Shown here piece by piece: positions 13,839 to 30,869 of a DNA stretch of 40,980 nucleotides. Source of the DNA: Gemmatimonadaceae bacterium. GTDB lineage: Bacteria > Gemmatimonadota > Gemmatimonadetes > Gemmatimonadales > Gemmatimonadaceae. The DNA lies in the NCBI GenBank assembly GCA_025934075.1, contig JAICYT010000005.1:1-40980 (forward strand), given 5' to 3'. The notes under the pieces are model-generated. The model worked only from the letters and a program-made list of their open reading frames with translations, was not told the origin of the DNA and did no database searches. A program made the position numbers and the translations under genes. Within the stretch, counting starts at the first letter, position 1, and every line of letters starts with the position of its first letter.

Positions 13839-15119
13839 ATGCGGTTCCATACCTATACCAAGTTCAGCCCCGAGCTCGCGGACGCGATCGATCTCCAATC
13901 GCTGCTCGACAAGCTCGCCGATTTCCTGCTGCAGTCTGGATTCGCCGGCGGCGACAACCAGTCGTACTACGGCTGGGACGGACAAGACGAGGGCAATCGC
14001 TCGCTCGATGCGCTCAAGCAGGCGATTCTCGACGCGCTCATGGAGAGCGGACAGTTCACGCCGGAGATGCTCGAAGCGCTCCGGGGTGGTGACGATGAAG
14101 AAGGCCAAGCCAAACTCGCCGAGTTGCTCGACAAACTCGTCCAGCGTTTGATGGAAGAGGGTTACCTCAACCTCGAGAACGCGCCGCAGATGCCGGCTGG
14201 TCATCAACCCGTCACCGGTCCGGGAAGCCTCGCCCAAGCCGCCGCGCGCGACGTCCAGTTCAATCTCACTGAGAAAGGCATCGACTTCCTCGGCTATAAG
14301 ACTTTACGAAATCTCCTCGGGTCGCTCGGGCGCTCGAGCTTCGGCAGCCACGATACGGCGTATCTCGCGACCGGCATCGAGTCCGATGGCTGGAGCAAGT
14401 CGTACGAATTCGGAGACGTCTTGAACATCGACGTCAACGAGACGCTCAAGAACTCGCTCGCCCGCACCGGCAAGATCGAAGTCCCGATGGATCTCGACTA
14501 CAGCGATCTCATGGTGCGCCAAGCCGAGTATCGTTCGTCGTGCGCGACGGTGCTCATGCTCGACTGCTCACATTCGATGATTCTGTACGGCGAGGATCGC
14601 TTCACGCCGGCGAAGAAAGTGGCGCTTGCGCTGACGCATCTGATTCGGACGCAATTCCCCGGCGACACGCTCAAGGTCGTGCTCTTCCACGACTCAGCCG
14701 AGGAGATCCCGTTGGCGACGCTCGCGACGGCGCAGGTTGGCCCGTATCACACGAACACGGCGGAAGGTTTGAAGCTCGCGCGTCGGTTGCTGATGGGACA
14801 GAAGAAGGACATGCGACAGATCATCATGATCACCGACGGCAAGCCAAGCGCGTTGACGATGCCGAACGGTCAGATCTACAAGAACTCGTTCGGGCTCCAC
14901 ACGACCGTCATTGCGCAGACGCTGCGCGAGGTGGCAAACTGCCGCCGCGCAGGGATCATGATCAACACGTTCATGCTGGCCCGCGATCGCACGTTGATCG
15001 AATTCGTGAAGCGTGTATCGCAGATCAGCCGCGGCAAGGCGTACTTCACGTCGACAATGACGCTCGGGCAATTCATCCTGATGGACTTCCTCAAGCGAAA
15101 GACGAGGAAGGTCGGGTAG
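13839..15119 (+). CDS. von Willebrand factor type A domain protein
   Basis: Intact MIDAS: DCSHS, T in NTAEGL, D in ITDGKPS; partner type of the AAA+ ATPase at 9771. Confidence 0.85.
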
Positions 15120-25151: not shown

Positions 25152-25279
25152 AGGTGAAGGCGAGCGAGGACTGACCGACCATCGGCGAGCATCGACAGCC
25201 CCGTCGTCGCACCCCGCCGAGCCGGTTGGCCTCTGGCAACCCATTCCGCCCGTCATTACACTACATATCACATCCGATT

Positions 25280-25328
25280 CGTGGCGATTTAAGGGCAAAT
25301 TGCGGCCACGTAAAACATTCCGCTAAAA
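25280..25328 (+). promoter_or_regulatory. SAM-II (SAM_alpha)-like riboswitch candidate upstream of metH
   Basis: CGTGGC GATTTAAGGGCAAATTGCG GCCACG TAAAACATTCCGCTAAAA: perfect 6-bp P1, GATTT loop, TTGC, and 3' CGCTAAAA match remembered SAM-II conserved elements; P2 pseudoknot only weakly supported by eye. Confidence 0.68.
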
Positions 25329-25333
25329 CGCCG

Positions 25334-25370
25334 GCCCGAGCGCTTGCGTTGCGGGCATTTTTCTTTTTTT
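25334..25370 (+). terminator. Intrinsic terminator/attenuator in the metH leader
   Basis: GCCCG-AGCGCTTGCGTTG-CGGGC hairpin (inner AGCG/CGTT also pairs) followed by ATTTTTCTTTTTTT. Confidence 0.8.
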
Positions 25371-25380
25371 CCGCACCCCG

Positions 25381-28300
25381 ATGGCTCAGCTAACCGACTC
25401 AACCGCACCGACGGCATCGAAAAACGACGGATCGCCGAGCGGGTATCTCGACGCGATCGCGAAGCGTGTGATCGTGTTCGACGGCGCGATGGGGACGAAC
25501 ATTCAGCGACATCACCCGACGCCGGAAGATTTCGGCGGAAAGTCGCTCGAGGGTTGCAACGATCATCTGGTTCTGACCCGACCCGACATCATCCAGTCGA
25601 TCCACGAATCGTTCCTCGCCGTCGGTTGCGACGTCGTCGAGACGTGCACCTTCCAGTCGACGCCCCATCGTCTTCGCGAGTGGGGAATCGAGGAGAAGAC
25701 GCGCGACATCAACGTCGCCGCCGCTCGATTGGCCCGCGCCGCCTGCGACAAGTACTCGACGCCGGACAAACCGCGATTCGTCGCCGGCTCGATCGGGCCC
25801 ACAGGTCTGCTTCTCTCGAGCAACGACCCCGTCCTCTCGAACACCACCTTCGCGGAGCTCGAAGAGAATTATTACGCGCAAGCCAAGTATCTCGTCGAAG
25901 GCGGAGTGGACGTTCTGCTCATCGAGACATCGCAAGACATTCTCGAGGTGAAGGCCGCGGTCGCCGGGTTCGAGCGGCTGTTCGTCGAGATTGGCCGTCG
26001 CGTCGCGATCCAAGCGCAAGTCACACTCGACACGAGCGGACGCATGCTGCTCGGCACCGACATCGCGAGCGCGATGACGACGCTCGAGGCGTTGCGCGTC
26101 GATGTGATCGGTCTCAATTGCTCGACGGGCCCCGAGCACATGCGCGAGCCGATTCGATATCTCGCCGAGAATGCGATTCGACCTGTGTCGTGCATTCCGA
26201 ACGCGGGCTTGCCGCTCAACACCGGCACGGGCGACGCGATCTATCCACTCGAGCCCGAGCCGATGGCGCAAATGCTCGGCGAATTCGTCGAGCAGTTCGG
26301 GGTCAGAATCGTGGGTGGATGTTGCGGAACGACACCCGAGCATTTGAAAGCGATTGTGGAGAGGATAGAAGGCAGCCGCACACCTTCCCTCGGCACTCCA
26401 CGCTCCACCATCCACCCTGGCGCAATTCGCGGCTCCAAGGTCCCACGCGCCTCCTCCGCCATGCGCGCCATCGACTTCGATCAAAATCCGAAGCCGCTGC
26501 TCATCGGCGAACGCGTCAACGCGCAGGGATCACGCAAGGTCAAACGGCTCCTGCTCGGCGATGACTACGACGGAATCGCGACCGTGGCGCGTGAACAGGT
26601 GGAATCGGGCGCGCACGTCCTCGACGTGTGCGTCGCCGTCACCGAGCGCGGCGACGAAGCGGAGCAGATGGCGAAAGTCGTCAAGCTGCTGTCGATGACC
26701 GTCGAGACGCCCATCATGGTCGACTCGACGGAAGCCAGCGTCATCGCGACCGCGCTCGAGACGATTCCGGGGCGCGCCATCATCAACTCCATCAACATGG
26801 AGAATGGTCGCGAGCGCATCGACCGCGTCGTGCCGCTCGCCAAGAAACACGGCGCGGCCCTCGTCGCGCTCACCATCGACCCCGAGGGCATGGCGAAGAC
26901 GCGCCAGCGGAAGCTCGAGGTCGCGAAGAAGATCTATGACATCGTCGTCGGCGAGTACGGCCTCAAGCCGGAGGATCTCATCTATGACGATCTCACCTTC
27001 ACGCTCGCGACCGGCGACGCCGAATGGATCGACTCGGCCGTCGAGACGATCGAAGGCATCCGGCTCATCAAACGCGAACTTCCCGGCGTCTACACGAGCC
27101 TCGGCGTGTCGAACGTGAGCTTTGGTCTCGCGCCGGACGCGCGCGCCGTCTTGAATTCAGTGTTCTTGCATCACTGTGTCGAAGCGGGGCTCGACATGGC
27201 GATCGTGAACCCTGCACACGTGCAACCGTACGCGGAGATTCCGGCCGACGAGCGCGCGCTCGCCGATGATCTGGTGTTCAATCGCCGGCCCGATGCGTTG
27301 CAGCGTTTCATCGAGCACTTCGATCAAAAGGCGAATGGAGAGTCCGCCGACAGCGCCCGCGCTGGCGGCGTTCAAATAGATGCATCCAGTGAACTCGCGC
27401 CTCCGGCGCGAGTTCACTGGATGGTGGTGCACCGAAAGAAGGAGGGCATCGAAGCCGCGCTCGATGCCGCGGGCGTACGCGAGAACCCAGTGCGCGTGCT
27501 GAATGACGTGTTGTTGCCGGCCATGAAAGAAGTCGGCGACAAATTCGGTGCCGGTGAGCTCATTCTGCCGTTCGTGCTGCAGTCCGCCGAGGTGATGAAG
27601 AAGGCGGTGAAGCATCTGGAACAGTTCTTGGAGCGCGCCGAAGGATACACCAAGGGACGCGTCGTGTTGGCGACCGTGTATGGCGACGTGCACGACATCG
27701 GCAAGTCGCTGGTCAACACGATTCTCTCGAACAATGGGTATACGGTTTACGATCTGGGCAAGCAGGTTCCGGTAAACACCATCATCGAGAAGGCGCTCGA
27801 GGTGAACGCAGACGCGATCGGATTGTCGGCGCTGCTCGTGTCGACGTCGAAGCAGATGCCGTTGTGCGTGCAGGAGCTCGATCGTCGTAGCTTGGACATT
27901 CCGGTGTTGATTGGCGGCGCCGCGATCAATCGCCGCTTTGGGCGACGCGCGTTGTTCGTCGAAGGCGACCGGGCGTACGAGTCCGGCGTCTTTTATTGCA
28001 AGGATGCATTCGAGGGGCTGGAGACGATGGATCGTCTTCAGGACGACGAGACGCACGACACGTTCGTCGCGAAGCTGCTCGACGATGCGCGGACGGACAA
28101 GTTCTTGCACACGAATGTTGGAAAGGATACGTCGTCGGGCAACGCCGGCGGCGAGCGGAGCGACGTTACTGCCGACAACCCGGTGCCATCGGCGCCGTTC
28201 TTCGGCGCACGAACGCTCAACGATATCCCGCTCGACGAAGTCTTCGCGCTGCTCGATCTCGACGAACTCTATCGACTGCAGTGGGGCGCCCGTGGATCGG

Positions 28301-28965
28301 GACCGGAATACGAGGCGACTGTCCGCAAAGAATTCGAACCCACACTCGCTCGACTCAAGGAATCAGCAAAGTGTGATCGTTGGCTCCAACCGCGTGCGGT
28401 GTACGGGCTCTTCCCTGCTCAGTCACTGGCGAACGATCTGGTCGTATACGATCCCGCTGCGTATGCGGCAGACGGCACGACGCGAGAGATCGCGCGCTTC
28501 CATTTCCCGCGCCAGGAAGGGCGCGAGCGGCTCTGCATCGCTGACTATTTCCGGTCGACCGGGTCGACGGACGTCGACGTCGTCGCGTTCCAGGTCGTGA
28601 CGGTCGGTGATGCCGCAACCGAGCGATTCCAGACGTTGCAGAACTCCGGCGAGTATACCGAAGCGTTTTACGTGCATGGATTGGCAGTGGAGACCGCGGA
28701 AGCCGTCGCAGAGTGGATGCACCGAAAGATTCGTCACGATCTCGGTGTTCCAGCCGGTCAGGGTAAGCGGTATTCGTGGGGCTACGGCGCGTGTCCGGAT
28801 CTCGAGGATCACGCGCAGGTGTTCAAAATCTTGCCAGTTGAAAGCGAGCTCGGTATGCAGCTCACGAGTGCATATCAACTGATCCCCGAGCAGAGCACAG
28901 CGGCGATCATCGTGCATCACCGCCAAGCGAAGTACTACGCCGTGCGGGGCGAAGGAGCAAAATAG
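25381..28965 (+). CDS. metH: Cobalamin-dependent methionine synthase MetH
   Basis: Homocysteine methyltransferase (GGCCGTTPEH), pterin-binding (INSINMENGRERI), B12 motif DVHDIGKSLV, activation domain (GYGACPDLEDH). Confidence 0.95.
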   Translation: MAQLTDSTAPTASKNDGSPSGYLDAIAKRVIVFDGAMGTNIQRHHPTPEDFGGKSLEGCNDHLVLTRPDIIQSIHESFLAVGCDVVETCTFQSTPHRLREWGIEEKTRDINVAAARLARAACDKYSTPDKPRFVAGSIGPTGLLLSSNDPVLSNTTFAELEENYYAQAKYLVEGGVDVLLIETSQDILEVKAAVAGFERLFVEIGRRVAIQAQVTLDTSGRMLLGTDIASAMTTLEALRVDVIGLNCSTGPEHMREPIRYLAENAIRPVSCIPNAGLPLNTGTGDAIYPLEPEPMAQMLGEFVEQFGVRIVGGCCGTTPEHLKAIVERIEGSRTPSLGTPRSTIHPGAIRGSKVPRASSAMRAIDFDQNPKPLLIGERVNAQGSRKVKRLLLGDDYDGIATVAREQVESGAHVLDVCVAVTERGDEAEQMAKVVKLLSMTVETPIMVDSTEASVIATALETIPGRAIINSINMENGRERIDRVVPLAKKHGAALVALTIDPEGMAKTRQRKLEVAKKIYDIVVGEYGLKPEDLIYDDLTFTLATGDAEWIDSAVETIEGIRLIKRELPGVYTSLGVSNVSFGLAPDARAVLNSVFLHHCVEAGLDMAIVNPAHVQPYAEIPADERALADDLVFNRRPDALQRFIEHFDQKANGESADSARAGGVQIDASSELAPPARVHWMVVHRKKEGIEAALDAAGVRENPVRVLNDVLLPAMKEVGDKFGAGELILPFVLQSAEVMKKAVKHLEQFLERAEGYTKGRVVLATVYGDVHDIGKSLVNTILSNNGYTVYDLGKQVPVNTIIEKALEVNADAIGLSALLVSTSKQMPLCVQELDRRSLDIPVLIGGAAINRRFGRRALFVEGDRAYESGVFYCKDAFEGLETMDRLQDDETHDTFVAKLLDDARTDKFLHTNVGKDTSSGNAGGERSDVTADNPVPSAPFFGARTLNDIPLDEVFALLDLDELYRLQWGARGSGPEYEATVRKEFEPTLARLKESAKCDRWLQPRAVYGLFPAQSLANDLVVYDPAAYAADGTTREIARFHFPRQEGRERLCIADYFRSTGSTDVDVVAFQVVTVGDAATERFQTLQNSGEYTEAFYVHGLAVETAEAVAEWMHRKIRHDLGVPAGQGKRYSWGYGACPDLEDHAQVFKILPVESELGMQLTSAYQLIPEQSTAAIIVHHRQAKYYAVRGEGAK
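27383..27423. repeat. Perfect palindrome inside metH (19-bp arms, 3-nt loop)
   Basis: CATCCAGTGAACTCGCGCC-tcc-GGCGCGAGTTCACTGGATG, arms exact reverse complements. Confidence 0.95.
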
Positions 28966-30869
28966 TGCCTTCCCAGTCCAAGCTTCAGCGTCTTCTCGAC
29001 CCCAATGCCATCGTCATCTTCGACGGCGCCATGGGCACGATGCTGTACAGCAAGGGCGTGTTCATCAATCAATGCTATGATGAGCTGAACGTTCGTGCGC
29101 CCGACATGGTCCGCGACGTTCACAAGCAGTATGTCGCGGCCGGCGCTGAAGTGATCGAGACCAACAGCTTCGGCGCGAATCGCCTCAAGCTCACGCAGCA
29201 TGGCTTGCAGGATCAAGTGCACGAGCTCAATCGTTCCGCCGCCGTGTTGGCGCGCGAAGCCGCCGGCGACCGCGCGCTCGTCGCAGGTGCGGTTGGACCA
29301 CTCGGCGTACGCATCGAGCCGTACGGACCGACGAGTGCCGACGAGGCGTGTTCGATATTTCACGAGCAGTTGATTGGGCTCAAGGACGGCGGCGTCGATC
29401 TGTTCATTCTCGAGACGTTCAGCGACCTCCAGGAGATCGAGCAGGCGATTCGGGCGGCGCGTTCGGTCGATCCCAGCTTGCCGATCGTCGCGCAGATGAC
29501 CGTTGGCGTCGACGGACGAACGCCGTATGGCGCGACGCCTGAGGACGTCGCGCGCTCGCTCGACAGTTGGGGCGCGGACGTCATTGGTCTCAACTGCTCC
29601 GTCGGGCCGCAGACCATTCTCGAATGCATCGAGAAGATGTCGCCGCACACGCGCAAGAAGTTGAGCGCGCAGCCAAACGCCGGGATGCCGCGCGACGTTG
29701 GCGGTCGCAGCATGTACATGGCGAGCCCAGAATACATGGGCACGTATGCGCGGCATCTCGTGCAAGCCGGAGCCAAGGTGGTGGGCGGATGCTGTGGCAC
29801 GACGCCCGAGCACATTCACTCGATGGTCGAAGGTGTGCGACCGTTGAGTCCACGAATCGCGGGCGGTGGCGCTCTCGACCTCTCGCACAATGGTGGCGCG
29901 ACTGGGAGCGGTGTGAGTGCAACGATCACTGAGCCTCGCGCGCCGGCGGCTGACGGCGTGCCGCCTGTGCCACTGGCTGAGCGCTCCAAGTGGGGACGCA
30001 AGCTCGCGATGGAGGAATTCGTCACGTCGGTGGAGATCGTGCCGCCGCGCGGCGTCGACGCGACGCGCATGCTCGCCGACGTCGGGCGGCTGAAAACCGC
30101 GGGCGTCGATGCGGTGAACGTCCCCGACGGACCACGGGCGCAGAGCCGGATGGGCGCGCTGCTTACCAGTGTGCTCATCGAACAGCAAGTCGGCATCGAG
30201 ACGGTGACGCACTATGCCTGTCGCGATCGCAACCTGCTGGGCATGCTGAGCGATTTGTTGGGAGCGGCGGCGGTCGGACTTCGCAACGTGCTCGTGGTGA
30301 CGGGCGATCCGCCGAAGATGGGTCCTTATCCCGATGCGACTGCCGTATTCGACGTCGACTCGATCGGCTTGACGAATTTGATTCGCAATCTCAATCGCGG
30401 TCTCGATCCCGGCGGCAATGCGATCGGGAAGCCGACGTGTTTTGCCATTGGCGTTGGCTGCAATCCCGTCGCGATCGATCCCGCGCAGGAGCTCAAGCGC
30501 TTCGAGTGGAAAGTCGACGCCGGCGCGGAGTACGCGATCACGCAACCGGTATTCGATGCGGCGCAGCTCGAGCGGTTCCTCGCGTCGATCGCGCATGTGC
30601 GGATCCCGGTCATCGCGGGAATCTGGCCGCTGGTCTCGGTGCGCAATGCGGAGTTCCTCGCCAACGAAGTACCGGGCGTGACCGTACCACAGAGCATCAT
30701 CACGCGAATGCGTCGCGCGAACGAGAAATCGAAGGAGCACGCCGTGGCGGAGGGCGTCGCGATCGCGCATGAAATGTTCGATCGCGTGAAAGGCGCCGTC
30801 GAGGGCGTGCAGGTTTCGGCACCATTCGGTAAGGTCGAACTCGCGTTGAAGGTCTTCGAACGGAGCTGA
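28965..30869 (+). CDS. Bifunctional homocysteine S-methyltransferase/methylenetetrahydrofolate reductase (YitJ-like fusion)
   Basis: N-terminal DGAMGTMLYSKG...GGCCGTTPEHI; C-terminal MTHFR (VEIVPPRGVDATRML, CRDRNLLGMLSDLLGAAAVGLRNVLVVTGDPPKMG, AEYAITQPVFD). Confidence 0.92.
   Translation: MPSQSKLQRLLDPNAIVIFDGAMGTMLYSKGVFINQCYDELNVRAPDMVRDVHKQYVAAGAEVIETNSFGANRLKLTQHGLQDQVHELNRSAAVLAREAAGDRALVAGAVGPLGVRIEPYGPTSADEACSIFHEQLIGLKDGGVDLFILETFSDLQEIEQAIRAARSVDPSLPIVAQMTVGVDGRTPYGATPEDVARSLDSWGADVIGLNCSVGPQTILECIEKMSPHTRKKLSAQPNAGMPRDVGGRSMYMASPEYMGTYARHLVQAGAKVVGGCCGTTPEHIHSMVEGVRPLSPRIAGGGALDLSHNGGATGSGVSATITEPRAPAADGVPPVPLAERSKWGRKLAMEEFVTSVEIVPPRGVDATRMLADVGRLKTAGVDAVNVPDGPRAQSRMGALLTSVLIEQQVGIETVTHYACRDRNLLGMLSDLLGAAAVGLRNVLVVTGDPPKMGPYPDATAVFDVDSIGLTNLIRNLNRGLDPGGNAIGKPTCFAIGVGCNPVAIDPAQELKRFEWKVDAGAEYAITQPVFDAAQLERFLASIAHVRIPVIAGIWPLVSVRNAEFLANEVPGVTVPQSIITRMRRANEKSKEHAVAEGVAIAHEMFDRVKGAVEGVQVSAPFGKVELALKVFERS

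Follow-up and report, generated by a model that had tools for sequence, protein, structure and literature searches.

A SAM-II riboswitch with a closely following intrinsic terminator in the metH leader of a Gemmatimonadaceae bacterium

The window analyzed here is a stretch of 40,980 nucleotides from a Gemmatimonadaceae bacterium (GenBank assembly GCA_025934075.1, contig JAICYT010000005.1, positions 1 to 40,980 of the forward strand). The forward strand carries metH (25381-28965), which encodes a cobalamin-dependent methionine synthase of 1194 amino acids (TIGR02082, 1109.8 bits, cutoff 1010.85). The next gene on this strand encodes a bifunctional homocysteine S-methyltransferase/methylenetetrahydrofolate reductase (HMT/MTHFR; 28965-30869; NF006396, 734 bits, cutoff 453). 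Its GTG start codon shares one base with the metH stop codon, and the two genes are predicted to share one operon. The closest metH proteins come from Gemmatimonadaceae genomes, in agreement with the impression, in an earlier sequence-only reading of the window, that the host is not alphaproteobacterial. The same reading had proposed a SAM-II-like element at 25280-25328. The motif does lie there, while the feature as a whole is larger, running from about 25270 to 25370 and comprising a 5' flank, an aptamer, and a terminator.

The whole window was compared with all of Rfam 15 using cmscan, and the only match at gathering level was to RF00521 (SAM_alpha, the SAM-II class) at 25271-25346 on the forward strand. 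This match scores 42.5 bits, where the gathering score is 36 (E-value 2.1e-6), and covers model positions 1-79 of 79. The covariance-model check suggested in the earlier reading therefore supports its SAM-II call. P1 is a hairpin at 25280-25310 on the forward strand, in which CGTGGC (25280-25285) pairs perfectly with GCCACG (25305-25310) over 6 bp; it is paired in all of the 67 distinct Gemmatimonadota copies used for pair counts. The loop L1 occupies 25286-25304 and contains GAUUU (25286-25290) and UUGC (25300-25303), and the GCUAAAA segment follows at 25322-25328. The letters quoted in the earlier reading were thereby all confirmed.

The pseudoknot spans 25294-25332 on the forward strand and was assessed by counting pairs across copies, with shuffling and sliding as controls. 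Its core consists of the pairs G25302-C25323, C25303-G25322, and G25304-C25321, which match those suggested by mutual information in PMC2258182. The 3-bp P2a, between GGC 25294-25296 and GCC 25330-25332, is a second segment that the sequence-only reading had omitted. Of the GCGG/CCGC pairing considered there, only 25302-25304 with 25321-25323 holds, since G25305 is part of P1; the other candidate, AAATTG/CATTCC, was rejected as lying in the wrong register. P2 had also been judged weak, which proved mistaken: in the corrected register 185 of 201 P2a cells are paired, compared with 37-110 of 201 after sliding by 1-3 columns, and while kinship among the sequences inflates these counts, the slide control has the same kinship. 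The two inner core pairs never vary across the 67 copies, hence uninformative as to covariation, and the third is formed in 54 of them. The outer P2a pair varies (G-C, C-G, A-U, G-U) and forms in 55/67 copies against a shuffle mean of 39.7, a count reached by none of 1000 shuffles. Comparison with relatives thus supports both the pseudoknot core and P2a, and the outer P2a pair covaries.

The element is widespread among related genomes. SAM-II is present in 57 of 60 relatives, a sample of 201 genomes from across the phylum has it in 138, and it was not found in 14 control genomes (0/14). There are 44 metH loci of the Gemmatimonadaceae type, one of which (L034) was left out for having too little upstream sequence. 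On the conservation check proposed in the earlier reading, every one of the 43 evaluable loci keeps the element before metH, as the strict motif in 41 and in divergent form in two (L045 and L055, with below-threshold scores of 34.6 and 23.9 bits). The Chloroflexota metH loci, searched by the strict motif only, gave no match. A chance resemblance, in which a stem happens to carry matching loop letters, might be entertained given that the motif is short and that the whole leader folds no better than shuffled sequence (z +0.99). It is nevertheless wholly improbable: the E-value of 2e-6 was obtained over the whole window against all of Rfam, and conservation of position at orthologous metH genes and in 57/60 relatives already refutes it.

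In deeper Gemmatimonadota-type metH loci, the leaders of L076, L081, and L085 fit RF01726 (SAM-II long loop) better than RF00521, though among the three only L076 passes the RF01726 threshold; another deeper locus, L102, carries RF00521. From these model fits, the three loci suggest that the SAM-II subtype has changed ahead of metH.

SAM-II precedes further methionine genes in the host and its relatives. The host genome has two copies, ahead of metH and metX respectively. The second is followed by the gene for a MetX-type homoserine acyltransferase (NF006449, 338 bits, cutoff 296) and then by the start of a putative PLP-dependent trans-sulfuration enzyme, named from sequence only. Other copies in the group precede metF, HMT/MTHFR, metX-like, and metY-like genes, several of them named on the same basis, and the targets metH, metX, metF, HMT/MTHFR, and metY-like form a coherent SAM regulon. 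Sequence does not reveal ligand specificity with certainty, so a variant aptamer with a SAM-II-like fold might answer another ligand, such as SAH or a related nucleoside. We regard this as very unlikely, given that the conserved SAM-II core bases GAUUU, UUGC, and GCUAAA are all kept in the window and its relatives, and that the targets supply methionine and SAM, for which repression by SAM is expected. Our reading is that the metH leader carries a genuine SAM-II riboswitch, predicted to bind SAM from its family membership.

Three observations lie outside this pattern. Locus L003 (G007:C13) has a divergent pair of SAM-II copies, at 14227-14302 on the reverse strand and 14510-14583 on the forward strand. 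One precedes panB (TIGR00222, above cutoff), a gene that falls outside the usual methionine regulon, and the other precedes an ATP-grasp-like protein without an NCBIfam match. Genome G047 has both SAM-I (C279:1529-1625) and SAM-II (C215:707-780) above threshold, whereas no species in a 2007 survey had the two together (PMC2258182); this draft is about 80% complete, and contamination is a possible explanation. Finally, a Sinorhizobium medicae plasmid carries a SAM-II copy (L114, 1201-1266) whose core reads GTCTAAA instead of GCTAAA. The annotation shows no methionine gene immediately after this copy, which is possibly an orphan.

Immediately downstream of the aptamer is an intrinsic terminator (25334-25370, forward strand). 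It consists of a hairpin at 25334-25356 (-13.7 kcal/mol), with the outer stem GCCCG/CGGGC, and the U-tract UUUUUCUUUUUUU at 25358-25370. It starts 1 nt past P2a and stops 10 nt short of the metH start, and was also marked by a separate scan. A hairpin and U-tract are found behind 61 of the 67 copies, compared with 16 of 384 control stretches. No Shine-Dalgarno sequence was seen at metH, nor within or beside the aptamer, when the sequence was read. The terminator arrangement and the lack of a visible Shine-Dalgarno therefore favor transcription termination, the mode described for most SAM-II riboswitches (PMC6061858, PMC1273637, PMC2258182). The aptamer might instead control translation, with the SAM-bound fold hiding the start region and the hairpin and U-tract being incidental; a minority of SAM-II members (the metX type) act at the level of translation, with a short P2a of 2 bp (PMC6061858), and P2a here is only 3 bp. 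This alternative is unlikely in view of the missing Shine-Dalgarno in or next to the aptamer, the 48 nt separating P2a from the metH ATG, and the terminators behind 61/67 copies. What the analysis establishes is family membership, conservation, backing for the pairs of the pseudoknot, and the presence of the terminator. On these grounds, and taking SAM binding and the direction of control from the family, the metH leader is very probably a SAM-dependent transcriptional OFF switch for the operon of metH and HMT/MTHFR. Most likely, it shuts metH off once SAM, the end product, is in good supply.

The 5' flank points to where the transcript may start. The octamer ACATCCGA at 25270-25277 on the forward strand is the window's version of a conserved sequence, ACAAYYGA, which is matched at 7 or more of 8 positions in 52 of 67 relatives and in 3 of 384 controls. 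In Gemmatimonadota copies it lies 1-5 nt, rarely up to 9 nt, before P1, and it is not present in the four rhizobial SAM-II copies examined. A TANNNT box occurs 4-9 nt upstream of the octamer in 33 of 60 relatives, compared with 4 of 384 control stretches. In the window, a weak sigma-70-like promoter candidate (25233-25262, forward strand) can be read, with CTGGCA at 25233-25238, an 18-nt spacer, and TACACT at 25257-25262; a consensus scan did not pick it up. The octamer is probably at or just past the transcript start. A search for partners that could pair with ACAAYYGA gave, as its leading candidates, matches to loop positions that do not vary, with no covariation; the motif may simply be the transcript start.

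A mechanism can be proposed from these features. Transcription would begin near 25269-25270. With ample SAM, P1 and the P2/P2a pseudoknot would form in the aptamer (25280-25332), removing L1 from competition, and the terminator at 25334-25370 would form ahead of metH; the SAM-bound aptamer is compatible with this terminator because the two do not overlap. When SAM is scarce, P2 would open and free L1 to hold part of the ascending arm of the terminator. In the window, a speculative antiterminator of this kind would pair GGGC 25293-25296 with GCCC 25334-25337, and RNA polymerase would then read into metH.

Folding places limits on the second half of this scheme. Under pseudoknot-free folding, the probability of the terminator in the window is 0.98 in the apo state and 1.00 with the aptamer imposed, and the means over 61 leaders are 0.83 and 0.98, respectively. 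A strong nested apo antiterminator was sought in the window by folding and not found, which tells against this part of the scheme. An alternative stem, GGCG/CGCC (25283-25286/25329-25332), was discarded, as it breaks the aptamer and leaves the terminator intact. In leaders L002, L003, L017, L029, and L031, GCCGCC in L1 complements GGCGGC in the terminator arm. Across diverse leaders, pairing between L1 and the terminator arm averages -9.1 kcal/mol, compared with -7.8 kcal/mol when permuted (8/5000). In metH leaders, it does not beat permutation (4726/5000), and such pairing was rejected as a general rule for want of support in this group. We consider it rather doubtful that the Gemmatimonadota leaders are a distinct variant combining all of an L1-to-terminator antiterminator without SAM, a 3-bp P2a abutting the terminator, and an ACAAYYGA motif taking part in switching.

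By every structural feature checked, the element belongs to SAM-II. With the RF00521 metA type of Agrobacterium and rhizobia, it shares P1, the conserved loop bases, the UUGC/GCUAAA core, the pseudoknot, a downstream intrinsic terminator, and a methionine-gene context. It differs from that type in its host phylum, Gemmatimonadota, and in the placement of the terminator, which in Gemmatimonadota copies lies 0-8 nt, mostly 0-4 nt, past P2a. The ACAAYYGA flank likewise sets these copies apart from the four rhizobial ones, and P2a has 3 bp here in contrast to 5 bp in 60% of SAM-II (PMC6061858). Within Proteobacteria, SAM_alpha was reported only in Rhizobiales and Rhodobacterales, with the targets metY, metA, metX, hom, metC, and metW (PMC4239095); metH, the target in the window, is not among them. 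The SAM-II long loop (RF01726) has the same aptamer architecture and occurs ahead of metH-like genes in the deeper loci; the window copy passes the gathering threshold of RF00521 but not that of RF01726. SAM-V closely resembles SAM-II in its pseudoknot core and SAM binding (PMC6061858). It is, however, translational and hides the Shine-Dalgarno in P2a, whereas the window has a terminator, no Shine-Dalgarno was seen, and the match is to RF00521 and to no SAM-V model.

SAM-II has already been noted outside the alphaproteobacteria, in other proteobacteria and Bacteroides (PMC1273637, PMC2258182), and its occurrence in another phylum is therefore no surprise in principle. Our literature search found no paper linking SAM-II or SAM riboswitches with Gemmatimonadetes, Gemmatimonas, or Gemmatimonadota; such absence is not proof, and SAM-II seems to have attracted little attention in this phylum even though the class is well known. 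Mildly new are its abundance in Gemmatimonadota, metH as a main target, the short P2a with abutting terminator, and the octamer 5' of P1. A riboswitch class usually called alphaproteobacterial is now found in most sampled genomes of another phylum, and this gives a probable account of the regulation of these B12-dependent methionine synthase operons. In addition, the coupling of the SAM-II aptamer to termination was called not experimentally established in the 2007 survey (PMC2258182), and the 67 natural leaders, with their compact terminators, are good material on this subject.
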